Source of the DNA: Paracoccaceae bacterium
Lineage (GTDB): Bacteria; Pseudomonadota; Alphaproteobacteria; Rhodobacterales; Rhodobacteraceae
Assembly: GCA_003567315.1 (NCBI GenBank)
Contig: PWZT01000028.1
Span: forward strand, 1-64,000
DNA length: 64,000 bases
Direction: 5' to 3'
The translations under genes were made by a program, and so were the position numbers. How positions within the stretch are numbered: the first letter of the stretch is position 1; each line of letters opens with the position of its first letter. Below the pieces are notes generated by a model. It did not search any database, was not told the origin of the DNA, and saw nothing but the letters and a program-made list of their open reading frames with translations. Positions 13,300-56,665 of this stretch are shown here, one piece after another.

Positions 13300-13686
13300 G
13301 CGCGTCGCCCGGTCTGCCGTCAAGCCCCGTTCCCGATCAGCCCGGCGTATCCGACTGCGCGAATTGCCTTCATCTTGTCCCAAATACGCGCGCCGTCAGG
13401 CGCGCTTCTCCCCGAGAGGCGGCATACGCACTCCAGACGATGCGCGGCCCCAAGGGCGGCGCGCCAATGTGATCGAGGATCGCTCCAGGCGCAGTGAAAC
13501 CTTTTCATCGGTGACGCCCATTGCGCGTGACATGATCCCGCGCGGTCTCTACGCTGCGTCCCGCAATCGGGACACGCGGGTCAAGCCGGGCAATATCTTG
13601 CTTGAAGCCGCAGGCGCTGTGGCGTCGGATATGGCGCGTCCCGTGATCGGTCGGGAAGGTCAGCGAGAGGCGAAAGGGCACCGCGC
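13300..13686. other. Intergenic region with one dispersed-element copy
   Basis: This 387-bp gap between two plus-strand genes holds one copy of the dispersed 3'-end element with its GCGCGCC hairpin (13368-13405, minus orientation). I see no convincing gene in the rest; short open frames here have atypical Arg/Ala-rich composition and overlap the repeat. Confidence 0.6.
13368..13405 (-). repeat. Dispersed 3'-end element, copy 1
   Basis: Minus-strand reading: hairpin GCGCGCC-TGAC-GGCGCGC (13388-13405) runs directly into GTATTTGGGACAAGATGAAG (13368-13387). It is the only one of the seven copies not downstream of a gene on the same strand. Confidence 0.8.
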
Positions 13687-14751
13687 ATGAGAAAGCATAC
13701 GCAAACCGCGCCCCCGGAAAATCCCGCCTTGGCCGAGGGCCTGGACGTCAAGGCGCGGGCCGATGCGCCCGTATTCTGGCCGATCCGTCTGCAACAGCGG
13801 CTGGGCCTCCCCGGCATCAGCGGGGGTCTCGTCACAGCCACGTATCTGCTGCTCGCCTGGCTTGCAGCGGGGCGCGGGCCAGTCGCGGCATTCCCAACCG
13901 CACAAATGGGAGAGACGCTGTTTTTCGCGCTCTCGCTCGGCCTGATCGTCGAACTGGCCGCGCTCATACCGCGCGCCGCGCAGCGCGATCTGGACGCACT
14001 GGCCAGCGAAATGACACCAAACACCGCGCTTTTCGCGCAACTCAAAGCCGCGCTGATCCGCTACCCATCCAGCGATGTCGCGGTGAATGCCGCAATCGGG
14101 CTCGGGATCGGCGTGGCGCATGTCGCCCTGCTCGGGACCGGCCGGGAGGCTGTGGCGGGCGACGCGCGCGCTGTCATCCTGGCACTCGGCACGATCCTGC
14201 TCTGGGCGATGATGGTGCAAACCGGCTCCCTGCTTGTCGCCAATGCCCGGCTTTTTGCACAAATCGGGCGCAGCGCGGTCAGGGTGGAACTGCTTGCACT
14301 CGACCGGCTCCGCCCCATTGCAAGCGCCGCCCTGCGCCCGATGCTGCTCGTGATGGTGCTGCTGGCAGCCTACCCGCTGATGTTGCTCGGCACGGACGGG
14401 TTTGACGCATCGGCCGCCATCGGGCCCGTGGCCACAGCGCTGCTTGCGCTGGCAGTGGTATGGCTGCCCTTACATGGCCTGCGCGCACGCATTCACACGG
14501 CGCGTGCGCAGCAGATCGCCCGGATCGATGCTGCGTTGCAACAGACGTTGCAATCGGTTGACCGGCATGGCGCCCCTGCCGATCCGCAGCGCGCAGAGGC
14601 GTTGAGCGCTCTTCGCAGCAGAGTGCTGGCCGCGCCCACACTGCCTCTCGGGCTGGGTGGTGTCGGGCGGGGGCTGATCTACCTCGCACTGCCAGTGGCA
14701 ACCTGGGGTGGCAAGGGCTTCGCCGAAGGAGTGCTGAGCTGGCTCTTCTGA
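13687..14751 (+). CDS. Membrane protein of unknown function
   Basis: A 354-residue protein with a polar N-terminus (about 45 residues) and hydrophobic segments at roughly 50-70 (GLVTATYLLLAWLAAG), 80-100, 140-155, 165-185, 220-240 (LLVMVLLAAYPLMLLG), 250-270 and near the C-terminus (LIYLALPVATW). A cytoplasmic-looking helical stretch (ARAQQIARIDAALQQTLQSV) lies between the last two. I recognise no family. It has no close operon partner: a 387-bp gap precedes it and 171 bp follow. The ATG at 13687 is the first reasonable start. Confidence 0.65.
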   Translation: MRKHTQTAPPENPALAEGLDVKARADAPVFWPIRLQQRLGLPGISGGLVTATYLLLAWLAAGRGPVAAFPTAQMGETLFFALSLGLIVELAALIPRAAQRDLDALASEMTPNTALFAQLKAALIRYPSSDVAVNAAIGLGIGVAHVALLGTGREAVAGDARAVILALGTILLWAMMVQTGSLLVANARLFAQIGRSAVRVELLALDRLRPIASAALRPMLLVMVLLAAYPLMLLGTDGFDASAAIGPVATALLALAVVWLPLHGLRARIHTARAQQIARIDAALQQTLQSVDRHGAPADPQRAEALSALRSRVLAAPTLPLGLGGVGRGLIYLALPVATWGGKGFAEGVLSWLF

Positions 14752-14922
14752 CCCTCTGCCTGGCTGACCGGTGCGTGGAGCATACTGCGTGGCCCGTCCG
14801 GCTTGGCTGTGTTGGGCTGTTCATCGCCAAGCCAGATGCCGGAGCAAAAAACCAAGGGCTTGGCGAACCGAAAAAGCCTTGCTAGGTTACGGGCTCATGT
14901 GTCTTTCCCAAAGCCGGTTTTC

Positions 14923-15780
14923 ATGCGCCACAGCCTGCCCACGATCCCGCAATTCTACGTGACCGCCCCCCAGCCCTGCCCCTATCTCGCGGGCCGGATG
15001 GAGCGCAAGCTGTTCACGGCGCTGCAGGGCGATCAGGCCGAGGCGATGAATGACACGCTCTCAAAACAGGGCTTCCGGCGCTCGCAGAATGTGCTCTACC
15101 GCCCCTCCTGCGCGGATTGCTGCGCCTGCCTGTCGGCGCGCATAAGGGTCGCGGATTTCAAACCCACCCGCTCGCAACGCCGCGTGATGAAGCGCAACCG
15201 CCATCTGCAGCGCCATGTCACCAGCGCCTGGGCCACCGAGGATCAGTACGACCTTTTCCGCCGCTACCTCGATTCGCGCCATGCCGATGGCGGAATGGCG
15301 GATATGGATGTGTTCGAATTCGCCGCGATGATCGAGGAAACGCCAGTGCGGACGCGGGTGCTGGAATATGTGGGCCATGGCGCGAACGGGCGGCGGCAAT
15401 TGCAGGCCGTGTGTCTCAGCGATGTGCTCGATGACGGGTTGAGCCTTGTCTATTCCTTCTTCGACCCCGACCACGCCGCGCGCTCGCTTGGCAGCTTCAT
15501 GATCCTCGATCAGATCGAGCTTGCGCGTCAGATCGGCCTGCCTTTCGTGTATCTGGGCTATTGGGTGCCGGGCAGCCCCAAGATGGATTACAAGGCGAAA
15601 TTCTCCGCGCTCGAAGTCTATCACGAGGGCGCATGGCAGACGCTGCGCGACCCGGCGCGCTATTCGGGCACAACCCATCCGCTCTCGGTCAAACCCATCG
15701 CCGAGCAAGTGGCCGGGCTGACATTGCCCGGGACGCTCAGCGCGCCGATTGCCCCGAGAACCCCGCGCCGCGAAAAATGA
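14923..15780 (+). CDS. bpt: Bacterial aminoacyl-tRNA-protein transferase (Bpt/Ate1-like)
   Basis: Members of this family transfer an amino acid from its tRNA (leucine in Bpt) to the N-terminus of proteins exposing Asp or Glu, marking them for N-degron proteolysis. The 285-residue product shows the ATE N-terminal cysteine cluster ([30 protein letters not shown]) and the C-terminal domain with [27 protein letters not shown] and [13 protein letters not shown]. Start at 14923 ([12 protein letters not shown]) is chosen because it matches the family's usual N-terminus; upstream in-frame codons add an unlikely 40 residues. Confidence 0.92.
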
Positions 15781-15848
15781 ACTGCCCCCGGAGGGCGGAG
15801 ACGCTGAACCCGCGCCCCAGCGCCAGCCAAAACGACCCCGCGCCTCAA

Positions 15849-15900
15849 CTTCATCTTGCCAGAAATACTCTCGCCGAAGGCAGCGCGCCGACAGGCGCGC
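15849..15900 (-). repeat. Dispersed 3'-end element, copy 2 (with hairpin)
   Basis: Minus-strand reading: hairpin GCGCGCC-TGTC-GGCGCGC (15883-15900), a mini hairpin GCCTTCGGC, then GAGAGTATTTCTGG and CAAGATGAAG ending at 15849. It lies 46 bp downstream of the minus-strand yjbQ-like gene, in the gap converging with bpt, and probably acts at that gene's 3' end. Confidence 0.85.
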
Positions 15901-15945
15901 TCCCCGACTGTGAAACATACCGCCATAGCTTGATCGTGCGGCGTT

Positions 15946-16362
15946 CTAGCGCAGCATCACCACCACTTCGCGCGCATGCGGGGCGTCGCGGTGCTCGACA
16001 AGGTAAATCCCCTGCCAGCGCCCCAGCAGCATCCGCCCGTCGATCACGGGGATTTGCAGACTGGTCGGCAAGAGCGCTGCCTTGATATGCGCGGGCATGT
16101 CGTCCGGCCCCTCGATCCGGTGGGTGAGCCAGTTCATCTGCGGATGATCGGCATGGGGCGCGAGCCGCGTCAGAAACCCCATCAAATCGGTCTGCACATC
16201 CGGGTCGGCATTTTCCTGAATCAGCAGGCTGGCGGAGGTATGGCGGATGAACAACGTGAGCACGCCTGTGCCCTCCAGCATCGGGATGATGCTCCGGGTG
16301 ATCTCGTAGAATCCCGCGCCCTGCGTGCGGATGCTCAAGCGTTGGCAGGCAGGCTCCGGCAT
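15946..16362 (-). CDS. YjbQ-family protein (UPF0047)
   Basis: A 138-residue single-domain protein with the family signatures GVLTLFIRHTSASLLIQENADP, the H-rich middle (WLTHRIEGPDDMPAHIKAALL) and the end LLGRWQGIYLVEHRD. E. coli YjbQ shows weak thiamine-phosphate synthase activity, but the physiological role is unknown. It lies just downstream of the DUF1178 gene (12 bp), likely one transcript. Confidence 0.92.
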   Translation of the reverse strand: MPEPACQRLSIRTQGAGFYEITRSIIPMLEGTGVLTLFIRHTSASLLIQENADPDVQTDLMGFLTRLAPHADHPQMNWLTHRIEGPDDMPAHIKAALLPTSLQIPVIDGRMLLGRWQGIYLVEHRDAPHAREVVVMLR

Positions 16363-16374
16363 CGCAGGGCTGCG

Positions 16375-16800
16375 TCAATTGGTATTGCGCGCAGGCGCAA
16401 AGGGCAGCGGCAGCACGGGCACGCCGTCATCAAGCAGCGCCTTGGCCTCGTCGGGCGCGGCTACACCATGGATGGGCCGGTCGGGAATGTCGCCGAGGTA
16501 CATCGCCCGCGCCTCGGTCACGAACTGATCGCCGACGTCATTGGAATGCGCTTCAATATAGGCGCGCAAGTCTTTGATTTTCTGTGATATATCTGGGGGT
16601 TCGGGCGTGCTTTCAGGTATTGCAGGCGCAGTGCTCGCCCCCGTGATCGCGGGTGCCATCAACGCCTTTTCGATCTTGCCGGAACCGCAATGCGGACATG
16701 TCACCATCCCGCGCGCATTGAGTGTGTCAAAGGCCGACCCGGATTGAAACCAGCTTTCGAAACTGTGCCCTTCGGCGCATTTCAGAGAGAACTTTATCAT
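16375..16800 (-). CDS. DUF1178 zinc-ribbon protein
   Basis: The 141-residue product begins MIKFSLKCAEGHSFESWFQS and has a CPHCGSG knuckle, so two cysteine clusters could hold one zinc ion. After a Pro/Ala linker comes a conserved helical region (LRAYIEAHSNDVGDQFVTEARAMYLGDIPDRPIHGVA). Function is unknown; the family is largely alpha- and betaproteobacterial. I use ATG 16800, as the conserved segment starts there; GTG and ATG codons slightly upstream are less likely. It is divergent from the glutathione peroxidase. Confidence 0.9.
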   Translation of the reverse strand: MIKFSLKCAEGHSFESWFQSGSAFDTLNARGMVTCPHCGSGKIEKALMAPAITGASTAPAIPESTPEPPDISQKIKDLRAYIEAHSNDVGDQFVTEARAMYLGDIPDRPIHGVAAPDEAKALLDDGVPVLPLPFAPARNTN

Positions 16801-16919
16801 GAACTGAACTACTCGATTACGCATGGAGAATTATACAGCAGCAATTTCAGATCAAGCCAAAATACCTTGCCGAACCCTCTGTTCCGGCTAGTTTTCGCCG
16901 AAGTCTCACGGAGGGTGCC

Positions 16920-17426
16920 ATGCTCAGGATCGCTGCAATGCTCGTTTCACTCTTTGCCCTGCCTACCCATGCGTTTACCTTCACCGGGCTTGATGGAAGC
17001 CGCATCGACTTGAGCGACTGGCGCGGGACACCGGTTCTGGTGGTCAATACGGCCTCGCTGTGCGGCTTCACCCGGCAATATGGCGACATGCAGGCGCTTT
17101 ACGAGGAATACGGCCCGCAAGGGCTTGTCGTGCTTGCGGTCCCGTCCGATGATTTCCGCCAGGAGTTGTCGAGCAATGAGGAAGTCGCCGATTTCTGCCG
17201 CGTGCAGACCGGGCTGACCTTCCCGATCACGCAGATCACGCCCGTGCGCGGGTCGCAGGCACACCCGTTTTACCAATGGCTTGCCGAGGAACATGGGCAT
17301 GTGCCCTCGTGGAATTTCAACAAGGCGCTGATCGGGCCGGAGGGAGAGTTGATGGGCTTCTGGGGGTCGCGGACCCGCCCCACGGCACGCGCCATCACCA
17401 GCCAGATCCGCACCGCCCTGCCCTGA
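16920..17426 (+). CDS. Glutathione peroxidase-family protein, probably exported
   Basis: A 168-residue thiol peroxidase reducing peroxides. It has an N-terminal signal-like segment (MLRIAAMLVSLFALPTHA), the peroxidatic Cys48 in VVNTASLCGFTRQYG, and the WNFNKALI motif with the tetrad Trp and Asn. Unusually, the tetrad Gln motif (normally in a PCNQFG-like segment) is replaced by PSDDFRQEL, so the active site differs from classic enzymes. The protein uses cysteine, not selenocysteine. GGAGGG lies 7 nt before the ATG. It lies 87 bp before the deacetylase-like gene. Confidence 0.9.
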   Translation: MLRIAAMLVSLFALPTHAFTFTGLDGSRIDLSDWRGTPVLVVNTASLCGFTRQYGDMQALYEEYGPQGLVVLAVPSDDFRQELSSNEEVADFCRVQTGLTFPITQITPVRGSQAHPFYQWLAEEHGHVPSWNFNKALIGPEGELMGFWGSRTRPTARAITSQIRTALP

Positions 17427-17431
17427 TCCAC

Positions 17432-17459
17432 TTTTTCACATGGTGAAATCGTTTTTCAT
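17432..17459 (+). repeat. Upstream copy of a 28-bp direct repeat
   Basis: This segment matches 17506-17533 at all but three or so positions, 74 bp apart. It contains the palindrome TTTCAC-ATG-GTGAAA and the inverted repeat TGAAA-N5-TTTCA. It lies in the gap between the peroxidase and the deacetylase-like gene, as an operator would. Confidence 0.75.
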
Positions 17460-17505
17460 AATCAGACCGCCAAGTGCCAAATCGGGCCGGTTGCTGGCAG
17501 GGTAT

Positions 17506-17533
17506 TTTTTCGCATGATGAAACCGTTTTTCAT
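17506..17533 (+). promoter_or_regulatory. Second copy of the 28-bp repeat, overlapping a start codon
   Basis: The downstream copy spans the start codon at 17514 and carries a perfect inverted repeat GATGAAA-N5-TTTCATC (17515-17533). A protein bound here would block translation initiation or early elongation, or the RNA could fold as a hairpin over the start. Confidence 0.55.
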
Positions 17534-26637: not shown

Positions 26638-27951
26638 ATGGGCGATTTCGCCGCGTATCTTGATACGGCTTTCTGGGTCAGTGCCGGGGCAATCCTTCTG
26701 TTGCTGGTCATCTCGGGGCTCTTTTCGGGCTCGGAAACCGCGCTGACTGCCTCGAGCCGGGGCAAGCTGAAAGCACAGGCCGACAAGGGCGAGACCGGCG
26801 CGCAGCGCGCGCTCACGCTGACTGATGACAGTGAGCGCATGATCGGCGCGATCCTGCTGGGCAACAACCTCGTCAATATCCTTGCGGCGTCGCTGGCCAC
26901 CGCGCTGTTCACGCGGCTTTTCGGCGATAGCGGGGTGGCGCTGGCCACGCTGGTCATGACGCTTCTGGTGCTGGTCTTTGCCGAGGTGCTGCCCAAGACC
27001 TATGCCATCTCCAACCCCGAACGCGCGGCGACGCGCGTGGCCCCGGCGCTGCGCTGGGTGGTGGCGATCTTCTCGCCAGTGGTGAGTGTGGTGCGCTTTA
27101 TCGTGCGTCGGGTGCTGGCCGTGTTCGGGGTGCGCATCGACCCTGACAGCAACATCCTGTCGGTGCATGAGGAAATCGCGGGCACGCTCGCGCTGGGGCA
27201 TTCCACGGGCTCGGTCGAGAAGGAGCATCGCGACCGGCTGATGGGCGCGCTCGATCTGTCGGAGCGCACGGTCGAGGAGATCATGCGCCATCGCAGCCAG
27301 ATCGAGACCGTCAACGCCGAGGATCCGATCGCGGACATCATCGCGCAATGCATCGCTTCGCCGCATTCGCGGCTGCCGATGTATCGCGACGAGCCCGAAA
27401 ACATCATCGGCATTCTCTATGCGCGCGATCTGGTGCGCGAGATGCACCGGCTGGTGCTGGAAGCCGGGGGCGATTATTCGGCGATCAGCGCGCTTGATCT
27501 GAATGCGCTCGCGCGCCCGCCCTATTTCGTGCCGGAGACCACGCCTCTCGATGAACAGATGCAGGAATTCCTGCGGCTGCGGCGGCATTTCGCGCTGGTG
27601 GTGGATGAATACGGCGCGCTGCATGGGCTGATCACGCTCGAGGATATTCTGGAAGAAATCGTGGGCGAGATCGAGGATGAATATGACACCGACCTCGCCC
27701 CGGAGATCGAGGTGAGCGAGGCGGGGGATGTGCAGGTCGATGGGGCGATGACCATTCGTGACCTCAACCGCGCGATGGATTGGAGCCTGCCGGATGAGGA
27801 AGCGGTGACAGTCGCCGGGCTGGTGATCCATGAGGCGCAGGCCATCCCGGAGGAGGGACAGGTGTTTTCCTTCCACGGTACGCGCTTCGAGATCGTGGCT
27901 CGCGACGGCAACCGGATCACCCGGCTGCGGCTGCGGCGGCGCGAGAGTTGA
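26638..27951 (+). CDS. CNNM/CorC-type membrane protein with CBS domains (hemolysin-family label)
   Basis: The 437-residue protein has a DUF21/CNNM transmembrane domain (about 15-195; LLLVISGLFSGSETALTASSRGKL, GNNLVNILAASLATALF), a CBS pair (about 210-335; RSQIETVNAEDPIADIIAQCI, EEFLRLRRHFALVVDEYGALHGLITLEDILEEIVGEIEDEYD-type segment) and a C-terminal CorC_HlyC domain (about 350-435). Such proteins are linked to magnesium/cobalt export; older 'hemolysin' labels are historical. Divergent from prfA. A dispersed-element copy follows its stop. Confidence 0.9.
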   Translation: MGDFAAYLDTAFWVSAGAILLLLVISGLFSGSETALTASSRGKLKAQADKGETGAQRALTLTDDSERMIGAILLGNNLVNILAASLATALFTRLFGDSGVALATLVMTLLVLVFAEVLPKTYAISNPERAATRVAPALRWVVAIFSPVVSVVRFIVRRVLAVFGVRIDPDSNILSVHEEIAGTLALGHSTGSVEKEHRDRLMGALDLSERTVEEIMRHRSQIETVNAEDPIADIIAQCIASPHSRLPMYRDEPENIIGILYARDLVREMHRLVLEAGGDYSAISALDLNALARPPYFVPETTPLDEQMQEFLRLRRHFALVVDEYGALHGLITLEDILEEIVGEIEDEYDTDLAPEIEVSEAGDVQVDGAMTIRDLNRAMDWSLPDEEAVTVAGLVIHEAQAIPEEGQVFSFHGTRFEIVARDGNRITRLRLRRRES

Positions 27952-27983: not shown

Positions 27984-28005
27984 GAGTATTTTTGGCAAGA
28001 TGAAG
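27984..28005 (+). repeat. Dispersed 3'-end element, copy 3
   Basis: GAGTATTTTTGG then CAAGATGAAG, 32 bp after the stop of the CNNM/CorC-like gene and on the same strand. A weak hairpin (TGCCG...CGGCA, 27961-27978) lies just before it. The gap is convergent with the ABC ATPase gene. Confidence 0.85.
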
Positions 28006-30388: not shown

Positions 30389-33190
30389 ATGAGTTTCGGC
30401 AAGGGCAGCCATCTGCATCTGATTGACGGCTCGGCCTATATCTTCCGCGCCTATCACGCGCTGCCGCCGCTTACGCGCAAATCCGACGGGTTGCCAGTGG
30501 GCGCCGTGGCAGGCTTTTGCAACATGCTCTGGCGCTATCTGGGCGAGAATGGCGCGAGTGCGGATGCATCCACCCATGCCGCCGTGATCTTCGACTATTC
30601 CTCCAAGACCTTCCGCAACGACATTTACGACCAATACAAGGCCAACCGCCCCGAGCCGCCCGAGGATCTGCGGCCGCAATTCCCGCTCACGCGCGACGCG
30701 AGCCGCGCCTTCAACCTCGCGACCATCGAGATCGAGGATTACGAGGCCGATGACATCATCGCCACGCTCGCGCGGCAGGCGCGCGAGGCCGGGGGGCGGG
30801 TGACGATCATTTCCTCGGACAAGGATCTGATGCAGCTTGTGGGCGACGGAGTCGAGATGCTCGATGCGATGAAGAACAAGCGCATCGGGGTGGAAGAAGT
30901 GGTCGAGAAATTCGGCGTGGGCCCCGAGCGCGTGGTGGATGTGCAGGCGCTCGCAGGCGATTCGGTCGATAATGTGCCCGGTGCGCCGGGGATCGGGATC
31001 AAGACGGCCGCACTTCTGATCAATGATTTCGGCGATCTGGAAACGCTGCTGGAGCGTGCCGAAGAGATCAAGCAACCCAAGCGCCGCGCAACCCTTGTGG
31101 ATCATGCCGAACAGATCCGGATCTCCAAGCGGCTGGTGCTGCTCGACGATCAGACCCCGCTCGATTTCACGCTGGAGGATCTCGAGGTCCGCGCGCCCGA
31201 GGCGGACACGCTGCTGGGCTTTCTCAATGACATGGAGTTCCGCACGCTGACCCGCCGCGTGGCCGAGCATTTCGGCACCGAGCCCCCTGCCCTACCAGAC
31301 CCCGCGCCCACCGCGCAGGCAGAGGCGCAGGACGCCGAGCAACCGGCGTTTGCCGAGGCCGAATATCTCTGCATCCGCGATCTGGACGATCTGCGCGGCT
31401 GGATTGCCGAGATCGAGGAGTTGGGCCATGTCGCGGTCGATACCGAAACCACCTCGCTCGATGAGATGCGCGCGGAGCTTGTGGGGATCTCGCTTTGCGT
31501 GAGGCCCGGGCGCGCGGCCTATATCCCGCTACAGCATCGCGCGGGCGGGGGCGATCTTTTCGGCAGCACGGAACTGGTCGAGGGGCAGATCCCGCTCGAT
31601 GCCGCGCTGGATCTGCTCGGGCCGATGCTGGAAGACCCGGCGATCCTCAAGATCGGGCAGAACATGAAATATGACGCCAAGATCTTCGCGGGGCTCGGGA
31701 TCACGGTCGCGCCCATCGATGACACGATGCTGATGTCCTATGCGCTGCATGGGGGCCTGCACGGGCACGGGATGGACGCGCTCTCGGACCGCTACCTCAA
31801 CCACCAGCCCATCGCCATCAAAACGCTTCTGGGCGGCGGCAAATCCGCGATCACCTTCGACCGTGTGCCAATCGAGGAGGCCACGCGCTACGCCGCCGAG
31901 GATGCCGATATCACGCTGCGGCTGTGGCAGATGTTCAAGCCGCGCCTGCACGCCGCGCAGGTGACGCGCGTCTATGAAACGCTCGAGCGCCCGTTGGTGC
32001 CGGTACTTGCCGCGATGGAGCGGCATGGGATCAAGGTGGATCGCGACGCGCTTTCGCGCATGTCCAATGCCTTTGCGCAGAAGATGGCGGGGCTCGAGGC
32101 GGAGATCCACGAGCTTGCGGGCGAGACATTCAATGTGGGCTCGCCCAAGCAACTGGGCGAGATACTGTTCGACAAGATGTCGCTGGAGGGCGGCAAGAAG
32201 GGCAAGACCGGGGCCTATGCCACGGGGGCGGATGTGCTGGAGGATCTGGCCGCCGAAGGGCACGACCTGCCTGCCCGCGTGCTCGACTGGCGGCAACTTT
32301 CGAAACTGAAATCGACCTATACGGATGCGTTGCAGGACCATATCCACCCCGAGACTGGCCGCGTGCACACCTCTTATGTGATTACGGGGGCAGTGACGGG
32401 GCGACTTTCCTCGACTGATCCGAACCTGCAGAATATCCCGATCCGCTCTGAAGAAGGGCGGCGCATCCGTACTGCATTCGTGGCCGAGCCCGGCCACAAG
32501 CTGGTCGCGCTCGACTACAGCCAGATCGAGCTGCGGATCTTGGCCCATATCGCAGGGATCGACAGCCTGAAATCGGCCTTTCGCGAGGGGCAGGACATCC
32601 ATGCGATGACCGCCTCCGAGATGTTCGGTGTGCCGATGGAGGATATGACCTCGGAGGTCCGGCGCCGCGCCAAGGCGATCAATTTCGGGGTGATCTACGG
32701 AATTTCGGGCTATGGGCTTGCCCGCAACCTGCGCATTCCGCGCGCGGATGCGCAGGCTTTCATCGACACCTATTTCGAGCGTTTCCCCGGCATCCGCGCC
32801 TATATGGATGACACAGTGGCCTTCGCGAAAAAGGAAGGCCGGGTCGAGACGCTGTTCGGGCGGCGCATCCACACGCCCGAGATCAACGCCAAGGGCCCCG
32901 GCGCAGGCTTTGCGCGGCGTGCGGCGATCAATGCGCCGATACAGGGCACTGCGGCTGACATCATCCGCCGCGCGATGGTCCGTCTGCCGCAGGTGATTGA
33001 AGACCAGCCCGCGAAGATGCTGTTGCAGGTGCATGACGAGCTGGTGTTCGAGGTGGCGGAAGACGCAGTCGAGATTGTGATCGACCGGGTCCGCGAGGTG
33101 ATGGAGGCTGCCGCCGAGCCCGTGGTGAAGCTGAGCGTGCCGCTGGTGGTGGATGCGGGGGTGGGCGCCAGTTGGGCCGAGGCGCATTGA
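30389..33190 (+). CDS. polA: DNA polymerase I
   Basis: Full-length 933-residue Pol I for Okazaki-fragment maturation and repair. It has an N-terminal 5'-3' exonuclease domain (LHLIDGSAYIFRAYHALPPL, DYEADDIIATLAR, SSDKDLMQLVG), a 3'-5' proofreading domain whose first motif is intact (VAVDTETTSLDEM, about residue 350), and the polymerase domain with motif A ALDYSQIELRILAHIA (about 707), motif B RRRAKAINFGVIYGISGYGL (about 760) and motif C LLQVHDELVFEV (about 881). A dispersed-element copy follows the stop. Confidence 0.98.
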   Translation: MSFGKGSHLHLIDGSAYIFRAYHALPPLTRKSDGLPVGAVAGFCNMLWRYLGENGASADASTHAAVIFDYSSKTFRNDIYDQYKANRPEPPEDLRPQFPLTRDASRAFNLATIEIEDYEADDIIATLARQAREAGGRVTIISSDKDLMQLVGDGVEMLDAMKNKRIGVEEVVEKFGVGPERVVDVQALAGDSVDNVPGAPGIGIKTAALLINDFGDLETLLERAEEIKQPKRRATLVDHAEQIRISKRLVLLDDQTPLDFTLEDLEVRAPEADTLLGFLNDMEFRTLTRRVAEHFGTEPPALPDPAPTAQAEAQDAEQPAFAEAEYLCIRDLDDLRGWIAEIEELGHVAVDTETTSLDEMRAELVGISLCVRPGRAAYIPLQHRAGGGDLFGSTELVEGQIPLDAALDLLGPMLEDPAILKIGQNMKYDAKIFAGLGITVAPIDDTMLMSYALHGGLHGHGMDALSDRYLNHQPIAIKTLLGGGKSAITFDRVPIEEATRYAAEDADITLRLWQMFKPRLHAAQVTRVYETLERPLVPVLAAMERHGIKVDRDALSRMSNAFAQKMAGLEAEIHELAGETFNVGSPKQLGEILFDKMSLEGGKKGKTGAYATGADVLEDLAAEGHDLPARVLDWRQLSKLKSTYTDALQDHIHPETGRVHTSYVITGAVTGRLSSTDPNLQNIPIRSEEGRRIRTAFVAEPGHKLVALDYSQIELRILAHIAGIDSLKSAFREGQDIHAMTASEMFGVPMEDMTSEVRRRAKAINFGVIYGISGYGLARNLRIPRADAQAFIDTYFERFPGIRAYMDDTVAFAKKEGRVETLFGRRIHTPEINAKGPGAGFARRAAINAPIQGTAADIIRRAMVRLPQVIEDQPAKMLLQVHDELVFEVAEDAVEIVIDRVREVMEAAAEPVVKLSVPLVVDAGVGASWAEAH

Positions 33191-33204: not shown

Positions 33205-33226
33205 GAGTATTTCTGGCAAGATGAAG
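33205..33226 (+). repeat. Dispersed 3'-end element, copy 4
   Basis: GAGTATTTCTGG then CAAGATGAAG, 14 bp after the polA stop and on the polA strand. It sits in the 43-bp gap converging with the adenine deaminase gene. No strong hairpin precedes this copy. Confidence 0.85.
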
Positions 33227-44184: not shown

Positions 44185-44236
44185 GCGCGCCTGACGGCGC
44201 GCGGCCTTCGGCGAGAGTATTTTGGGCAAGATGAAG
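44185..44236 (+). repeat. Dispersed 3'-end element, copy 5 (with hairpin)
   Basis: Hairpin GCGCGCC-TGAC-GGCGCGC (44185-44202), mini hairpin GCCTTCGGC, then GAGAGTATTTTGGG and CAAGATGAAG ending at 44236. It is about 80 bp downstream of the EamA gene on the same strand. Confidence 0.88.
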
Positions 44237-44367: not shown

Positions 44368-44958
44368 ATGCGCACCGCGCTTATTGCCCTGCCCGCCGCG
44401 CTCGCCCTTTCGGCCTGTATCGAGGCCGATTTCACGCTTGATGTCCTTGGCGAGGATGAGGCCCGCATCACTGGCTTCATCGAAATGCAGCGCCAGATGT
44501 TCGAGATGGCGGGCGCGGACGACTCCTTCTGCCCCGACGATGAGGGCGCCAGCATGACCATGACCGACACCCATGTGCGCTGCGAATTCGACACCACCGG
44601 CACCTTCGAGGAAGTGATGATGGACGGCGTGGGCCCGGGCGAAGAGGTCGGCGCGGACGAAGACACGCCGGGCGAGATCGCCTATCTGGGTGATGGCCGC
44701 GTGCGCGTCTTCCTGCCGCTGGGCATGATGGGCAGCGAGATGGACGAAATGGCCGAAGACCCGGCCATGATGGAGATGATGGCACAGATGATGGCGGGGC
44801 TGTCGGTCAGCTACACAGTGCGCGGGCGCGAGATCGAGAGCTCGACAGGCGAGATCTCCGAAGATGGCACCAGCGCCAATATCAGCTTCGGGGTCGATGA
44901 CCTGATGGGACCGGCCGAAGAGCGCCCGGTCGATTTCGAAACGATTGTGCGTTACTGA
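44368..44958 (+). CDS. Lipoprotein of unknown function, acidic
   Basis: A 196-residue protein with a lipoprotein signal ([17 protein letters not shown], Cys17) and a very acidic, Met-rich body ([21 protein letters not shown]). Two cysteines (SFCPDDE, VRCEFD) may form a disulfide. The mature part resembles, loosely, the LppM-type beta/alpha lipoproteins, but I cannot assign a family. AAGGAG precedes the ATG. Its last 7 nt overlap the end of pgi on the opposite strand. Confidence 0.78.
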
Positions 44959-46559
44959 CGCTGCGCGCGCAGAAAGGCGATCAGCGCCCGGGTCGAGCCG
45001 TCCTTGGCGCTGGCATCCGCCCCCTCCAGCATCGGGCCGAGCGCAGTTGCAAGTTCCTTTCCAAGCTCGACCCCCCATTGATCGAAGGAGTTGATCCCGA
45101 GGATCACGCCTTCGACAAAGACCCGGTGTTCATAGAGCGCGATGATCTGGCCCAGCGTGAAGGGGGTGAGTTGGGGGTAGATCAGCGTGGTGGACGGGCG
45201 GTTGCCCGGAAAGACCCGGTGGCGCGCCTGCCGCTCCAACGCGTCGCCTTCCAGCCCCTTGGCTTGCATCAGCGCGCGCGCTTCCGCCAGCGACCGCCCG
45301 CGCAACAGCGCTTCGGATTGCGCGAGGCAATTGGCGGCCAGTAGCCGGTGCTGATGCGCGAGCCCCGGCTCATGGCCTTTTGCGGCGAGCAGGAATTCGC
45401 AAGGGACCACGCGCGTGCCCTGATGGATGAGTTGGTAGAAGGCGTGCTGGCCATTGGTCCCGGGCTCGCCCCAGACAATCGGGCCGGATTGGCGGTCCAG
45501 ATCGCGCCCATCCATGCCCACGCGCTTGCCGTTCGATTCCATCTCCAGCTGTTGCAGATAGGCGGGCAGACGCGCGAGCCGCTGGTCATAAGGCAGCACA
45601 GCGCGTGTGGCATGACCGCAGATCTGATTGTGCCAGATGCCGACCAGCGCCAGCATCACCGGCATGTTCGCGGCCAGCGGTGCGGCGCAGAAATGGCGGT
45701 CCATCGCGCGCCCGCCTGCGAGAAACTGGTCGAACGCCTCCGAACCGATGGCCAGCATCAGCCCCAGCCCGATCGGCCCCCAGAGCGAGTAGCGCCCGCC
45801 CACCCAATCGGCAAAGCCGAACACGCGCTCAGGCGCGATGCCGAAGGCAGCGGTCCTGTCGCGCGCGGTCGAGACAGCGGCGAATTGCGCGCCCGGATCG
45901 GCCACGCTCTCGGCCATCCAGTCGCGCGCGGTCTGCGCATTGGTCATCGTCTCGATGGTGGTGAAGGTCTTGGAGGCGACGATCACCAGCGTCCTCTCCG
46001 GGTCCAGCGCGCGTAGCGTATCGGCGATATGCGCCCCGTCGACATTGCTGACATAATGCAGGCGCGGGCCATCGTGATAGGGGGCAAGCGCGCGCGTCGC
46101 CATGGCAGGCCCCAGATCAGAGCCGCCGATGCCGATATTGACCACATCGGTGATCGCGCCGCCCTGCCCCTTGAGCCGCCCCTTGCGCACAGCCTCCGCG
46201 AAGGCATAGGCCCGGCCACGCTCGGCGCGCAATTCGGGCATGACATCGGCGCCATCGACCTCGATCACTGCCGCATCATCGGCGCGCTGCGCGATATGCA
46301 ACACGGCGCGGCCTTCGGTCTCGTTGATCTTCGCACCGCCGAACATCGCCGCGCGCGCCCCCTCAAGCCCCGCGCTTTCGGCCAGACGGAGCAGCAGCGC
46401 GCGCCCCTGCTCGTCGATATTCGTCTTGGAATAATCCAGCCGCATGTCATTGCAGGTGGCCGAGAAATCCTCGGCCCGCCCTGGCGCCTCGAAAAGCTCC
46501 AGAATATGCCGCCCCTCATGCGCGCGTTGGTGCCGCGCCAATTCGCCCCAGATGCTCAT
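44952..46559 (-). CDS. pgi: Glucose-6-phosphate isomerase
   Basis: Pgi interconverts glucose-6-phosphate and fructose-6-phosphate. The 535-residue protein contains [70 protein letters not shown] (signature) and [16 protein letters not shown], with Lys near the end in [15 protein letters not shown]. It is the last gene of zwf-pgl-pgi; a copy of the dispersed element lies between it and pgl, 15 bp before its start. Confidence 0.97.
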
Positions 46560-46573: not shown

Positions 46574-46595
46574 CTTCATCTTGCCAAAAATACTC
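46574..46595 (-). repeat. Dispersed 3'-end element, copy 6
   Basis: Minus-strand GAGTATTTTTGG then CAAGATGAAG between pgl and pgi, inside an apparent operon, with an imperfect ACGCGC...GCGCGT hairpin before it (46601-46620, overlapping the pgl stop). If it terminates or processes RNA, it would lower pgi relative to zwf-pgl. Confidence 0.85.
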
Positions 46596-46620: not shown

Positions 46621-47292
46621 TCATTCGGACCAATGCACCTGCGCCTGGTCCAGGATCGCCGCGATCGGCGCCTCGGCGGGCGCGAGCTTCGCTGCGCGCG
46701 TGATCGCGTCGCGCTTGGCCTGCCCGGTGATCAGCACATGCACGCGCACGGCGTTCTTGAGCACTGGCAAGGTGAGCGTCACGCGCGGCTCTCCGGCGGC
46801 CTCGGCGCGCATCGGCAGCAGGCTCGGCGCATCTGCGCGCAGCGCCGCCTTGAGGTTATCGGCCCCCGGAAACAGCGAGGCGGTATGCATATCCTCGCCC
46901 ATCCCCAGCAGCAGCACCGAAATCGGCAGATGCGGCGCGAGCCCTTCGCGCAGTTCCTCCAGCCCCTCTTCGGGGGTCGCGTAATCGGCATGCAGCGGGA
47001 CCAGGTGCGCGCTCGCCGCCCGCCCCACCAGCAGGCGCTCGCGCAACAGCCGCGTGTTCGAGCGCGGGCTGTCCTCGGGCACCCAGCGCTCGTCATTGAG
47101 CACCACGGAGATTTTCGCCCAGTCGATTTCCGCGCCGCTGAGCGTGTCGAAGACAGGCCCCGGGGTGGTGCCGCCGGGAACCGAGAGCGTGGCCCGCCCG
47201 GAGCCGCGCAGCGTCTCGCCCAGCTGCGAGGCGATGCGTTGCGCCACGCGCAGCATCATCATCTCGCGATCCGGGTATTCATGAAAATCCAT
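46621..47292 (-). CDS. pgl: 6-phosphogluconolactonase
   Basis: Pgl hydrolyses 6-phosphogluconolactone. The 223-residue product belongs to the DevB/SOL type: LRGSGRATLSVPGGTTPGPVFDTLSG, WAKISVVLNDERWVPEDSPRSN, ISVLLLGMGEDMHTASLFPGA with the active-site GMGxDxHxAS motif. The start codon overlaps the last base of the zwf stop (47292), so it is translationally coupled. Confidence 0.96.
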   Translation of the reverse strand: MDFHEYPDREMMMLRVAQRIASQLGETLRGSGRATLSVPGGTTPGPVFDTLSGAEIDWAKISVVLNDERWVPEDSPRSNTRLLRERLLVGRAASAHLVPLHADYATPEEGLEELREGLAPHLPISVLLLGMGEDMHTASLFPGADNLKAALRADAPSLLPMRAEAAGEPRVTLTLPVLKNAVRVHVLITGQAKRDAITRAAKLAPAEAPIAAILDQAQVHWSE

Positions 47293-51785: not shown

Positions 51786-52435
51786 GTGATTCCTTCCCTG
51801 TCGGTTTCCACCCGGTAATAGGCCCAGAGCAACCCCGCTGCAACGCTGCGCCAGGGCGACCAATCAAGCGCGCGGCGCCGCAAAGCGGCCTCGCGGGGGC
51901 GTTCGGGCAACGCGTAGAGCCGCTTGACCGATTCCTGCAGCGCCAGATCAGCCGGCGCAAAGACATCCGCCCGCCCGAGGCTGAACATCGCGTAGATTTC
52001 CGCCGTCCAGCGGCCGATGCCCGGAACTTCGACAAGGATGCGCACGACCTCCTCATCGGGCAAATCGCGCAGCGCCTCGAAATCGATGCCCGAGGCGGCC
52101 AGCGCCCGCGCATAGCGCATCTTCTGCATCGACAGCCCCGGCGCGCGCAGCCCCTCATCATCGGCGGCCAGAACTGCCTCGGGCGTGGTGAGGCCCGCCG
52201 CCTCCATCCGACCCCAGATCGCGCGGGCGGCATGCGTGCTGACCTGCTGGCTGACGATCGCGGCAAGCAGATGCGCGAAGCCGTCGGGCCTGCGCCGCAA
52301 GGGCGGTGTGCCGGTCAGCGCAAGCGCATGGGCCAGGCGCGCATCGCGCTCTGCGAGCCATGCGGCGCCTTCCTCCATGCAGGCTTCGGTTTCGAGAATG
52401 CGCCCGACTGTCACCCGCGCGTCCTTTTGCTGCAC
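51782..52435 (-). CDS. DNA-3-methyladenine glycosylase II-like (AlkA)
   Basis: An HhH-GPD base-excision glycosylase of 217 residues. The helix-hairpin-helix is VRILVEVPGIGRWTAEIYAMF, followed by GRADVFAPADLALQ with the catalytic Asp of the GPD loop. Earlier there is FAHLLAAIVSQQVSTHAARAIWGR, the substrate-pocket helix. It would remove alkylated purines. The start is uncertain: GTG at 52435, a later GTG and an ATG are all possible; the conserved part begins near residue 20. Coupled to the esterase gene. Confidence 0.88.
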   Translation of the reverse strand: MQQKDARVTVGRILETEACMEEGAAWLAERDARLAHALALTGTPPLRRRPDGFAHLLAAIVSQQVSTHAARAIWGRMEAAGLTTPEAVLAADDEGLRAPGLSMQKMRYARALAASGIDFEALRDLPDEEVVRILVEVPGIGRWTAEIYAMFSLGRADVFAPADLALQESVKRLYALPERPREAALRRRALDWSPWRSVAAGLLWAYYRVETDREGIT

Positions 52436-52485
52436 ATGTAAAACACCTCTTCCAACCGCTCGGCAATGGCGCTAATCCTGCGCGC

Positions 52486-53703
52486 ATGAGCGATGCAGTT
52501 GCAACCCCCGATAACAGCCGCGCCAAGCGCAATGTGGCCGTCCTTGTCGCAGCCCAGGCAGTCGTGGGCGCGCAATTGCCGATCCTGTTCATCATCGGCG
52601 GGCTGGCAGGGCAGATGCTCGCGCCCAACCCGTGCTGGGCGACGCTTCCCATCTCGATGATCGTGCTGGGCTCCATGGCTGCCGCAACCCCGCTTGCGAG
52701 CTTCATGCAGGCTTACGGGCGGCGCGCGGGCTTCTGGGTGGCCTGTGGCGCAGGCGCTGTGGGGGCAAGCATTTCGGCCTATGGGCTGATGCTCGATTCC
52801 TTCCTGCTGTTCCTGCTCGGCTCCTTCATCACCGGCACCTACATGTCGGCCAATGGCTTCTACCGCTTCGCCGCGACCGACACCGCGAGCCCCGAGTTCC
52901 GGCCCAAGGCGATTTCTTATGTGATGGCAGGCGGCCTGCTCTCGGCAATCTTCGGCCCGCAGCTTGTCTCGCTGACCACGGATGCGATGTCGGTGCCGTT
53001 TCTTGCGACCTATTTCACAGTGATCGCGCTCAATGTCGCAGGCGCGGTGCTGCTCAGCGCGCTCGACATCCCGACGCCGCCCAAGCCCAGCAGCACGGCT
53101 CTGGCAGGGCGCTCGCGCAAGGAATTGCTGCAAGTGCCGGTCATCGCCGTCGCGGTCATATGCGGCACGGTCTCCTACGCGCTGATGAACCTGGTGATGA
53201 CCTCGACCCCGCTCGCGGTTGTGGGCTGCGGGTTCGACACGTCGGATGCGGCCAATATCGTCTCGGCGCATGTTCTGGCGATGTATGCGCCCTCCTTCTT
53301 CACTGGCCATCTGATCGCGCGTTTCGGCGCGCGCGCGATTGTCGGGCTGGGGCTCATTATCCTCGCAGCCTCTGGTGCAGTAGCCATGACCGGGGTGGAG
53401 CTGGAGCAGTTCTACATCGCGCTGATCCTGCTCGGCATCGGCTGGAATTTCGGCTTCATCGGGGCGACGAGCATGTTGACTGCCTCACACGGCCCCGAAG
53501 AGCGCGGACGGGTTCAAGGCATGAATGATATGATCGTGTTCGGCGGTGTTTTTGTCGCCTCGCTGAGTTCCGGCACGCTGATGAATTGCGCGGGCGGCAC
53601 GGCTGAAACCGGCTGGCAACTGGTCAATCTCGCCATGCTGCCCTTCCTTGCGCTTGCAGGCAGCGCGCTGATCTGGCTCGCCCTGCGCCCGCGCGAAGTG
53701 TGA
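52486..53703 (+). CDS. MFS transporter
   Basis: A 405-residue protein with 12 hydrophobic helices, including NVAVLVAAQAVVGAQLPILFIIGGLAG, ISMIVLGSMAAATPLASFMQ, FLLFLLGSFITGTYMSANGFYRFAA and, in the second half, FFTGHLIARFGARAIVGLGLII. The motif ASHGPEERGRVQGMNDMIVFGG near the end is shared with a group of alphaproteobacterial MFS proteins. Substrate unknown. It is divergent from the AlkA-like gene (50 bp). Confidence 0.88.
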   Translation: MSDAVATPDNSRAKRNVAVLVAAQAVVGAQLPILFIIGGLAGQMLAPNPCWATLPISMIVLGSMAAATPLASFMQAYGRRAGFWVACGAGAVGASISAYGLMLDSFLLFLLGSFITGTYMSANGFYRFAATDTASPEFRPKAISYVMAGGLLSAIFGPQLVSLTTDAMSVPFLATYFTVIALNVAGAVLLSALDIPTPPKPSSTALAGRSRKELLQVPVIAVAVICGTVSYALMNLVMTSTPLAVVGCGFDTSDAANIVSAHVLAMYAPSFFTGHLIARFGARAIVGLGLIILAASGAVAMTGVELEQFYIALILLGIGWNFGFIGATSMLTASHGPEERGRVQGMNDMIVFGGVFVASLSSGTLMNCAGGTAETGWQLVNLAMLPFLALAGSALIWLALRPREV

Positions 53704-53775
53704 TCACGCGCGCGCCGCGCGGGCCTTGTCAGACTGTCCTCTCCTGTGCTCTGATACTGTCAGGGGAGGACGATA

Positions 53776-55659
53776 ATGCGGGATTTCAGATCACAGGCCG
53801 ACCTGCGCGCCATCGAGGCTGAGGCCGATTGGGCCGCGCGCGACACACCGAAAACGGTTTTTCAGGCGCTGGAGCGCGTTGCAGAACGCCATGGCGCGCG
53901 CCCGGCGATCAGCTTCCAGATGTTCTCGGATGCGCGCGCGAAGGCTCAGACGCTGACATGGTCCGAGTTGAAGGGCCGCGTCACCCAGGCCGCCAATCTC
54001 TTCCGCAGCCTCGGGGTCAGCGAGGGCGAGACTGTCGCCTATATCCTGCCCACGCTCAATGAAACCGCGATCACGCTGCTCGGCGGGATGACCGCGGGCC
54101 GTGTCGCGCCCATCAACCCGCTGCTCGAGCCCGAGAAGATCGCCTCGCTGCTGCGCGAGACCGGCGCGAAAGCCGTGGTCACACTGCGCAGCTTTCCCAA
54201 GACCGATGTGGCGCAGAAGGTCGCCAAGGCCGTTGCGGATGCGCCGAATGTCGAGACTGTGCTCGAGTTGGACATGCTGCCGCATCTGAGCCCGCCGAAA
54301 AGCTGGATCGTGCCCCTGATCCGCCCGAAAAATGCGGTCACGCACAAGGCGCGCGTGCTGGATTTTCACCGCGAACTTGCCCGCCAGCCCGCCGACAAGC
54401 TGACCTTCGCGCCCGCCAATGGCGACCGGATTGCGGCGCTCTTTCACACTGGCGGCACGACCGGCATGCCGAAACTCGCCCAGCATCGGTTCGAGGGCAT
54501 GATCTATAATGGCTGGCTCGGCGCGGAGCTTCTGTTCACCGAGAAGGACGTGCTCCTCTGCCCGCTGCCGCTCTTTCATGTCTTCGCGGCCTATCCGATC
54601 CTGATGTGCTGCATCATGTCGGGCGCGCATGTCGTGTTTCCCACACCCCAAGGCTATCGCGGGGATGGCGTGTTCGACAATTTCTGGAAGCTGATCGAAC
54701 GCTGGGGCGTGACCTTCATGATCACTGTGCCGACCGCGCTCTCGGCCCTGATGCAGCGCAAGGTGGATGCCAAGATCGACACCCTGCGCACGGGGATCTC
54801 GGGCTCGGCAGCCCTGCCGCGCGAGCTTTACAAACGCTTCGAGCAGGCCACTGGCGTCCAGATCGCCGAGGGCTACGGGCTGACCGAGGCGACCTGCCTT
54901 GTCTCCTGCAACCCGATCGAGGGCACCAAGAAGATTGGCTCGGTGGGCCTGCCCCTGCCCTATACCAAGGTGAAGATCCTGCGCGAAGATAATGGCGGAT
55001 TCACCGAATGCGGCGTCGATGAGGGCGGCGAGATCTGCATCCTGAGCCCCGGCGTGAAGGAACCCACCTATACCGATGCCGAGAAGAATAACGGGCTCTA
55101 TGCGCCGGGCGGCTATCTGCGCACGGGCGATCTGGGGCGGCTCGATGCCGATGGCTATCTCTGGATCACCGGGCGGCAGAAGGATCTCATCATTCGCAGC
55201 GGCCACAATATCGACCCGGCCGAGATCGAGGAGGCGCTGCTCAGCCATCCCGAAGTGGCCTTTGTCGGCGCCATCGGCCAGCCCGACGCCAAGGCCGGCG
55301 AGTTGCCCTGCGCCTATGTCGAACTGGTCAGCGGAGCGCGGGCCACGCCGGAAGCGCTGCTCAAGCATGCGAAAGAGCATATATCCGAGCGCGCGGCGAT
55401 CCCCAAGCATATCGAAGTAATGGACACGCTGCCCAAGACCGCTGTGGGCAAGGTCTTCAAGCCCGATCTGCGACGACTCGCGATCAAGCGCGTTCTCAAC
55501 GCTGCGCTGAAGGACGCTGGCCTGTCAGCGGAGGTAAACGACGTCGTCGAGGACCGCAAACGCGGGCTTGTCGCGCGCATAAAGGCGCCAAGCGCAGTAA
55601 GCGACGACGATCTCGCGCAGGTGCTTGACGCGTTCACCATTCCATCCGAGCGCGCCTGA
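53776..55659 (+). CDS. Acyl-CoA synthetase (AMP-forming), FadD-like
   Basis: A 627-residue adenylate-forming enzyme that activates carboxylic acids to acyl-CoA through acyl-AMP. Motifs: the AMP-binding P-loop IAALFHTGGTTGMPKLAQHR, VQIAEGYGLTEATCLVSCNP, GYLRTGDLGRLDADGYLWITGRQKDLIIRSGHNIDPAEIEEAL and the C-terminal catalytic Lys in LPKTAVGKVFKPDL. Length fits medium/long-chain or aromatic-acid CoA ligases; the chain preference is not visible. GGGGAGGAC precedes the start. It stands alone between the MFS and lipoprotein genes. Confidence 0.93.
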   Translation: MRDFRSQADLRAIEAEADWAARDTPKTVFQALERVAERHGARPAISFQMFSDARAKAQTLTWSELKGRVTQAANLFRSLGVSEGETVAYILPTLNETAITLLGGMTAGRVAPINPLLEPEKIASLLRETGAKAVVTLRSFPKTDVAQKVAKAVADAPNVETVLELDMLPHLSPPKSWIVPLIRPKNAVTHKARVLDFHRELARQPADKLTFAPANGDRIAALFHTGGTTGMPKLAQHRFEGMIYNGWLGAELLFTEKDVLLCPLPLFHVFAAYPILMCCIMSGAHVVFPTPQGYRGDGVFDNFWKLIERWGVTFMITVPTALSALMQRKVDAKIDTLRTGISGSAALPRELYKRFEQATGVQIAEGYGLTEATCLVSCNPIEGTKKIGSVGLPLPYTKVKILREDNGGFTECGVDEGGEICILSPGVKEPTYTDAEKNNGLYAPGGYLRTGDLGRLDADGYLWITGRQKDLIIRSGHNIDPAEIEEALLSHPEVAFVGAIGQPDAKAGELPCAYVELVSGARATPEALLKHAKEHISERAAIPKHIEVMDTLPKTAVGKVFKPDLRRLAIKRVLNAALKDAGLSAEVNDVVEDRKRGLVARIKAPSAVSDDDLAQVLDAFTIPSERA

Positions 55660-55802
55660 GCAGCCAGCCCCTGCGCCGCGCGGCGAGTCATATTAGTCGC
55701 ATGCCAGCCAAAAATCGGGCCCTCCCGGAGCGCTCACGCATGTCAGCCTTGACATGGCGCCGCTCGCTGCCGATTCTGTTCGAAAAAAAATGTGAGGCAG
55801 AC

Positions 55803-56636
55803 ATGAGCAGTATCAGAACACCCGCGCTCGGCGCGGCTGTCCTTGTCGGTGTCGCGGCATGCGGTGGCGGCGGATCGGGGACCCCGGGAGACCAGGCGCG
55901 CAGCGCGACAACGATCAGCACTGACAATAGCGTGCATGCCGCCGAAGCCAGCGTCTCGCGCAATGATGACGGTCGCATTCTGCTGTCGATCACCGATGGC
56001 CCCATGGAAGGTGTGAGCGTCTTTTGCGAAGACGCGACGCTCGGGGCCTGCCAGGTCGTCGGCGGGCCTGCGAACACGAGCGGCGAAGGCAGCCTGATCA
56101 ATCGCAGCTACGGGCAATTCGCCTTTGTCGGCAATTTCAGCATCATGAAGCTTGTTGATGGCGAGAAGCAAGGCTCCACCCAGCTTGTCCATGATGCCAA
56201 TCCCGATCTCGGCCACACTGATGTCACCCTCCCCGAGGGCACGCGCAACTATAGCGGTCAATTCACGGCGACGGCGGATCTGGCCGATGGCCCTTCGGGT
56301 CTGGTCGAGGGTACCGCGTCGCTCGCCGCCGATTTCAACACCGCTGTCCTTGGCGGCAGTTTCACGGGGAGCTTCGATGATGCGACCGAAACCCGCGTGA
56401 CCGCGAGCTTCAACAATGTCACCATCGACGCGGCCAACGGGCAGTTCACGGCGACGGATGACACACTCATCCTGTTTCAGGATAGAGAAGTTTCCGGCGA
56501 CATCGATGGCGCCTTCTATGGGCCCAATGCCAGCGAGGCCGCAGGTATCTTCAGCTTCGGGGGGGACGACATCGGCAGCATGGATGGTGTCTTTATCGCC
56601 TGCGAGGGGGCCTCTGCGTCCTGCATCAAGCACTGA
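55803..56636 (+). CDS. TbpB-like surface lipoprotein
   Basis: A 277-residue lipoprotein (MSSIRTPALGAAVLVGVAAC, Cys20, then a GGGG linker). The second half has the alternating-strand pattern of the transferrin-binding-protein B beta-barrel domain: NYSGQFTATADL, VLGGSFTGSFDDAT, VSGDIDGAFYGPNASEAAGIFSFGG, ending with a short Cys-bearing strand. Such proteins can be displayed on the surface by Slam translocators; no Slam gene is nearby. The ligand is unknown. A dispersed element follows its stop on the other strand. Confidence 0.8.
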   Translation: MSSIRTPALGAAVLVGVAACGGGGSGTPGDQARSATTISTDNSVHAAEASVSRNDDGRILLSITDGPMEGVSVFCEDATLGACQVVGGPANTSGEGSLINRSYGQFAFVGNFSIMKLVDGEKQGSTQLVHDANPDLGHTDVTLPEGTRNYSGQFTATADLADGPSGLVEGTASLAADFNTAVLGGSFTGSFDDATETRVTASFNNVTIDAANGQFTATDDTLILFQDREVSGDIDGAFYGPNASEAAGIFSFGGDDIGSMDGVFIACEGASASCIKH

Positions 56637-56643
56637 CCTGGGG

Positions 56644-56665
56644 CTTCATCTTGCCCAAAATACTC
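56644..56665 (-). repeat. Dispersed 3'-end element, copy 7
   Basis: Minus-strand GAGTATTTTGGG then CAAGATGAAG, 58 bp downstream of proA on the same strand, in the gap converging with the lipoprotein gene. A GC-rich hairpin (GGCGCC-type, about 56690-56715) precedes it. Confidence 0.85.

Follow-up and report, generated by a model that had tools for sequence, protein, structure and literature searches.

We analysed a window of 64,000 nucleotides from a Paracoccaceae bacterium (contig PWZT01000028.1 of assembly GCA_003567315.1, positions 1 to 64,000), in which a short intergenic element occurs in seven copies. Exact matches to the 22-base word GAGTATTTNNGGCAAGATGAAG were found at six places, and a seventh site, at 13368-13389 on the minus strand, differs from it by two mismatches. 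The first-pass annotation of this DNA had reported seven dispersed copies, and all of them were located. Its description of the core required correction. The core is a single contiguous 22-mer, with GG and CAAG directly adjoining. Position 44185, given before as the start of copy 5, is the start of its hairpin, and the core begins at 44215. The core had also been said to begin with a T run; it opens with the box GAGTATTT, and its T stretch is broken by a fixed A. This box alone, at up to two mismatches, matched the window 6 times against 1.25 expected, and 0 of 100 shuffles reached 6. The hairpin GCGCGCC/GGCGCGC was seen ahead of three copies (13368, 15849 and 44215), as had been described. 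With genes called by a home-made caller, six of the seven copies lay downstream of a same-strand gene, again as described, the copy at 13368 excepted. The copies and hairpins are listed here, with types A and D referring to the upstream contexts defined below.

13368 to 13389, minus strand: core copy 1, GCGTATTTGGGACAAGATGAAG, two mismatches, type A hairpin, no same-strand gene upstream
13388 to 13405, minus strand: hairpin of copy 1, GCGCGCC-TGAC-GGCGCGC, overlapping the core by 2 bases
15849 to 15870, minus strand: core copy 2, exact, type A, in a gap not common to the congeners examined
15883 to 15900, minus strand: hairpin of copy 2, GCGCGCC-TGTC-GGCGCGC
27984 to 28005, plus strand: core copy 3, exact, type D, in a convergent gap after the CNNM/CorC gene (26638-27951)
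33205 to 33226, plus strand: core copy 4, exact, type D, in a convergent gap 14 bp past polA (30389-33190)
44185 to 44202, plus strand: hairpin of copy 5, GCGCGCC-TGAC-GGCGCGC
44215 to 44236, plus strand: core copy 5, exact, type A, in a tandem gap not common to the congeners examined
46574 to 46595, minus strand: core copy 6, exact, type D, between pgl (46621-47292) and a putative pgi (44952-46559, so called from its neighbours alone) on the same strand, 14 bp ahead of the putative pgi start codon
56644 to 56665, minus strand: core copy 7, exact, type D, in a convergent gap after the gene 56723-57979 (putative, likely proA); gap not common to the congeners examined

Copy 1 is a degenerate type A core, antisense to both of its neighbouring genes.

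The whole-genome search that had been suggested for this core was performed at up to three mismatches on the source genome (2.84 Mb, 102 contigs, 90% complete). It returned 107 sites, 48 on the plus and 59 on the minus strand, and 0 for the reversed-pattern control. From 90 fetched of the 100 listed sites among these 107 we read 92 distinct copies, copy 1 of the window being outside this set. A hairpin frequently opens the layout; the box GAGTATTT, a loose spacer of 2-3 bases and a tail, which is GGCAAGATGAAG in this genome, follow. Box and tail were nearly invariant across the 92 copies, and the 2-base spacer was almost free in type B and merely biased in types A and D. The four types differ in their upstream context, namely GCGCGCC-TGAC-GGCGCGC plus GCCTTCGGCGA in type A, G-run/C-run hairpins with a CCCCCG end in type B, GCCTCCGGCGG in type C (5 copies only) and NTT(T), with or without a hairpin before it, in type D. 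In types B and D, conservation is largely confined to the core. Type A forms a longer repeat, about 75 bp with boundaries defined by loss of conservation, and its conservation continues past the tail.

The placement of the element relative to genes was then counted in four sets of copies. The 92 copies of the source genome comprised 41 in convergent gaps, 24:22 in tandem gaps (with : against transcription), 1 in a divergent gap, 3 inside genes and 1 with incomplete context. For G440, a congener (78 of 82 copies), the counts were 20 convergent, 30:24 tandem, 1 divergent and 3 inside, of which two (L577, L622) look like over-long gene calls. Genome G391 (91 read of 92 counted) gave 26 convergent, 34:21 tandem, 9 divergent and 1 inside. 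A named-genome set (n=127, at least 117 stretches from one scan, biased to the word AAGATGAA) gave 28 convergent, 45:35 tandem, 4 divergent, 10 incomplete and 5 inside, some of the last again probably over-long calls. Promoter-only gaps were avoided (1/92 in the source genome and 1/78 in G440), and this avoidance was less in G391. The source genome favours convergent gaps; scaled from 46 window gaps, it has about 0.10 copies per convergent gap, 0.04 per tandem gap and 0.002 per divergent gap. The earlier picture of a dispersed family beside the 3' ends of genes, frequently preceded by a hairpin, was borne out. One of the 3 inside cases of the source genome is a copy in valS, GAGTATTTGGAGCAAGATGAAG, which codes for EYLEQDED and is kept in G468. 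It was taken as a codon coincidence, because the DNA word is absent from Ruegeria valS (L094) and similar EY..DE codes occur in several viral proteins.

Orientation was a check set by the first-pass annotation for a same-strand role at 3' ends. Pooled over the four sets, tandem gaps held 133:102 copies with and against transcription (p=0.05). Direction in these gaps is nearly random, with a possible weak same-strand bias. Of 97 locus pairs compared between genera, which do not count as independent, 13 had the element in the same gap but only in the reverse direction. The element does adjoin 3' ends, often with a hairpin, and to this extent the earlier claim stands; a same-strand function at 3' ends as its main role is not supported, since direction is close to random. 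Positions were not kept between genera. At the polA 3' end, which was matched in 146 of 149 genomes, box and tail were found in the source genome, G427 and G304 of 30 loci inspected. Many positions were kept within the genus.

Tail-to-tail doublets spanning about 52-65 bp were seen repeatedly, in several genera, and make long inverted repeats (G391:C1, L008, L088, L140). Another motif, ACAGGCTGGAGAGCCGATGxxCGxGCAAGGTGAAGCC, was noticed near elements in L001, L036 (about 6339-6390), L048, L052 and L092, and in four loci it separates the two members of a tail-to-tail pair. The motif ends in a stretch similar to the local tail, GAAAGGTGAAAG in L052, where the element tail is TTGAAAGATGAAAG. A search of four of these loci against Rfam at E up to 5 gave no relevant match.

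The exact word of the source genome was present in 1 of 289 genomes of a class-wide sample, the source genome itself, and in 27 of 149 genomes of a family sample with one genome per genus; the reversed control was 0 in all rows. In a scan of named genomes, all but three of the 80 titles listed were named as Rhodobacteraceae or Rhodobacterales or had genus names that we take to belong there. The exceptions among the matches listed were Kurthia, a Clostridia bin and an unnamed bin. No phage record matched a 33-nt query. Among viral contigs, at least 120 stretches matched, and 17 copies lay in stretches above 52% GC.

The family sample was also searched with the type C hairpin plus the first box as bait, leaving the tail free. 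With this bait 67 of the 149 genera carry the element; the remaining 82 may lack it or use another spelling. Tails were read in 16 of the 67 genera and, for further genera, from the exact-word family sample, and they were lineage-specific. The tail was AACAGAAGAAG in G429, GAACAATGAAG in G421 and AAGAGATGAAA in G293, mostly AAGGTGCAAAT in G408 and mostly CCAATAAGAAA in G350. In G419 nearly all listed copies ended in GCACA(A/G)AGAAG or GCGCAAAGAAG. The tail is a lineage dialect, near-uniform in the source genome and in many others.

Within the genus of the source genome (37 genomes including it, words counted at up to one mismatch), a second dialect has GGCAAGAAAATG in place of GGCAAGATGAAG. 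Counts of dialect 1 and dialect 2 were 103/1 in the source genome, 83/0 in G466, 0/72 in G470 and 1/82 in G440, and dialect 1 ranged from 0 to 83 copies in the other 36 congeners. The two dialects are close to mutually exclusive. Of the 31 genomes holding ten or more copies, 25 were at least 90% one dialect. The two counts were only weakly anticorrelated over the 37 genomes (Spearman -0.34, p=0.04). G440 copies have the same anatomy with the other tail and three free spacer bases. We compared 76 G440 elements outside clear genes with the corresponding gaps of the source genome, the dialect of each side following from the search pattern. Of these gaps, 29 also bear an element in the source genome, all 29 in the same direction and none solely in the opposite one, with the tail switched. 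Since each of the two genomes has just one copy of the word used by the other, these pairs are switches in place. In the switched pairs the hairpin is often unchanged and the flanks are nearly identical (e.g. D3/O44, D12/O70, D15/O72, D68/O65). Position and direction were also kept in 10 of 30 gaps compared with G468, and in 9 of 29 dialect-2 loci.

Three of the four type D copies in the window lie in gaps shared with congeners. The gap of the copy at 27984 also carries an element in a dialect-2 congener, that of 33205 is common to the source genome and G440, and the pgl/pgi site at 46574 is kept genus-wide with a switching dialect. At this junction (30 loci including the source genome), the local word agreed with the majority dialect of the genome in 23 of the 24 genomes bearing either word. 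In a tree of these genomes, in which G441 and G446 are labelled 'none' though both carry dialect 1, the dialect-2 genome G471 nests among the dialect-1 genomes G448, G464 and G465. At least 2 gains or losses of dialect 2 are forced by well-supported branches, and parsimony gives five. This pattern is one of concerted, sequence-specific evolution. The earlier suggestion that the tail needs a role beyond termination is supported.

The element was also found in a coding sequence, that of the essential gene ileS, which encodes isoleucyl-tRNA synthetase. Two ileS genes of the source assembly bear the word in frame, one exactly (L277, contig C88) and one with two mismatches (L298, contig C23), one of them in the tail, read there as ACG. 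By our estimate, about 5e-6 exact 20-base matches are expected per genome by chance. Over 600 nt around the element the two genes share 78% identity; the explanation would be either a paralogue or a bin contig of foreign origin. The ileS genes of Sinorhizobium and Methylobacterium have a shorter loop, and the word is absent from them. In dialect-2 G440, ileS carries TTGAGTATTTCTGGCAAGAAAATG in frame at the same place, as was expected beforehand from its dialect. Paracoccus denitrificans ileS has GGGTATTTGGGAAACGGAAAAGG, close to an intergenic spelling such as GAGTATTTGGAAAACGGAGAAAG; this comparison is approximate, with few copies and a nearly unannotated plasmid record on which we called the genes ourselves. 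The protein at the element varies (LSIFGKMKP, LSISGKKMG, GIWETEKDA) while the DNA word tracks the lineage. The ileS copy follows the lineage dialect in both congeners and approximately in Paracoccus.

Our proposal, to which we give a probability of roughly 0.45, is that the element may be a dispersed 22-bp recognition tag of Rhodobacterales. It would consist of an invariant box, a loose spacer and a lineage-specific box, read by a putative trans-acting factor. A sequence-specific reader is suggested because genomes are uniform, dialects follow lineages, switching occurs in place, and the spacer is loose between two fixed boxes. This reader, most likely a protein binding the tag as DNA, would recognise both boxes, with a specificity for the second that differs between lineages. 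When the reader changes, selection or recombination could drive the re-spelling of the copies, as with the dialects of DNA uptake sequences. Most of the places that tolerate a copy would adjoin the 3' ends of genes, where binding to the 22-bp site would disturb no promoter and no protein, and the hairpin ahead of many copies may also terminate the gene on its side. A more specific form of this idea is that of a self-identity tag, in which the second half would be a lineage password, with a diversifying reader and genome-wide re-spelling enforced even within the ileS coding sequence. We regard this form as tentative.

The first-pass annotation had read the copies as transcription terminators or 3'-end processing signals, with the tail perhaps aiding termination or 3'-end binding, which now appears improbable as a general explanation. 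As in intrinsic terminators, a GC hairpin may precede a T-rich stretch in copies near the 3' ends of genes, and the weak same-strand excess fits as well. The mean folding z (single-base shuffles, unequal lengths) was lower upstream than downstream in three sets, being -1.54/-0.17 in the source genome, -1.20/-0.44 in the named genomes and -0.65/-0.37 in G391, and upstream values below -1.5 were found in 48%, 41% and 25% of copies, respectively. At the pgl/pgi site a hairpin with a T stretch was seen in about half of 18 folded sequences. However, the hairpin there varies among species from strong to weak, being weak in several, and the core stays. Unlike intrinsic terminators, which would lie on the same strand downstream of a gene, the element has a direction almost independent of genes, a fixed but interrupted T stretch, and a specific tail beyond it. 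The sense copy in the middle of ileS is without a hairpin and would presumably be no efficient terminator. A terminator role is partial at most. It accounts for some hairpins and for the location, but not for direction, dialects or ileS. A replication- or segregation-linked polar site pointing along the fork, like Ter, FtsK-orienting polar sequences (KOPS) or Chi, is very improbable. It draws on G391, where the fork direction is followed by 69 of 91 copies, with an excess in every gene context. The origin of G391 was placed by parS-like sites at 2.70 Mb and the terminus by a noisy GC skew; a free two-arc split was equalled by 1 of 2000 shuffles. No such polarity was seen in two congeners of the source genome, whose best splits were 38/58 in G468 (reached by 1121 of 2000 shuffles) and 51/82 in G440 (988 of 1000 shuffles). 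Within G391 the bias is clear in type D, which has an extended consensus there (44/53 with the fork), and not in type B (24/37), the difference itself being not significant (p=0.08).

Copying without a reader is a more serious competitor, which we still consider unlikely. Here the copies would spread as in repetitive extragenic palindromic (REP) elements or by short-tract conversion from a master copy, and the dialect would be the spelling of the active master. The strongest support comes from type A. Only 2 of 29 type A gaps are shared with G440, compared with 27 of 60 gaps of the other types (Fisher p=2e-4), so type A spread recently in the lineage of the source genome. We favour the reading that type A is a recent expansion and that some subfamilies also copy themselves. 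The earlier suggestion of a mobile mini-element fits this one subfamily. The extended consensus and fork polarity of type D in G391, the mixed genomes with two words and the recurrent tail-to-tail doublets are in keeping with copying, too. Against it, positions and directions are kept within the genus and the tail alone changes, often with hairpin and flanks unchanged, and the spacer stays loose between two fixed boxes. The element resembles REP sequences with REP-associated tyrosine transposases (RAYT) in being extragenic, short, often accompanied by a hairpin and lineage-specific, with some subfamilies expanding. It differs in that the hairpin varies, with several types around one core within one genome in place of a conserved palindrome, whereas the flanking word is fixed, and in that the dialect switches in place. 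Copying does take place as well, as the recent expansions show. RAYT-type copying is unlikely, because the source genome has no Y1 transposase and only 15 of the 149 family genomes have one.

We return to the recognition tag, for which DNA uptake sequence (DUS) dialects are the precedent that we favour. In PMC3630211, the DUS of Neisseriaceae is described as a short, species-uniform word with dialects among relatives and with two dialects in some genomes; it forms inverted pairs at terminators and is tolerated mainly in permissive places. The element behaves alike on each of these points, apart from the mixed genomes, which break the within-genome uniformity expected of DUS and uptake signal sequences (USS). 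Compared by sequence, it differs in having about 100 copies and not thousands, in its 22-bp bipartite form with a hairpin, and in being almost never coding except in ileS. We do not take it for a member of the DUS family. Among the papers listed in searches of the open-access literature, none was found to describe the element, which is a weak negative. Several points weigh against the recognition tag. The reader itself is hypothetical, and our case for it is built from sequence. The 107 sites of the source genome are far below the thousands of uptake sequences. Six of the 31 genomes with ten or more copies are mixed in dialect, and in several congeners (e.g. G453, G467, G469) both words are rare or absent. 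G458 is the sole genome whose pgl/pgi site mismatches its dialect, and G450, the closest congener by pgi, has 45 dialect-1 copies and has lost the word at that site. G418 holds 27 TCGAGAGGATG and 8 CCAAGATGAA tails behind one and the same hairpin, and mixed or multiple tails occur also in G298, G332, G378, G379 and G415. The recent spread of type A and the fork-directed subfamily of G391 would not be predicted by a pure reader model.

Two other observations were made in the window. A match to 6S RNA lies at 61989-62145 on the plus strand, with 47.7 bits just above the Rfam gathering score of 46.4. ARAGORN reported a tRNA-Gly at 58264-58343 on the minus strand, inside an AA_kinase/PUA gene (57976-59091); Rfam did not report it, and it is probably a false call.

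Gene transfer agents are known in Rhodobacterales. If a reader exists, the Roseobacter group, Paracoccus and their relatives, together a large group that is well studied, would have a recognition system that spans the genome, can switch its specificity and has so far gone unrecognised, a tag system that may be tied to DNA exchange. If copying is the true explanation, a unit of about 12 bp would evolve in concert at dozens of fixed sites, which would need short-tract conversion. The 37 genomes of this genus, with two dialects and some mixed cases, offer a natural experiment in either case: the reader or the copier could be found by its association with dialect.

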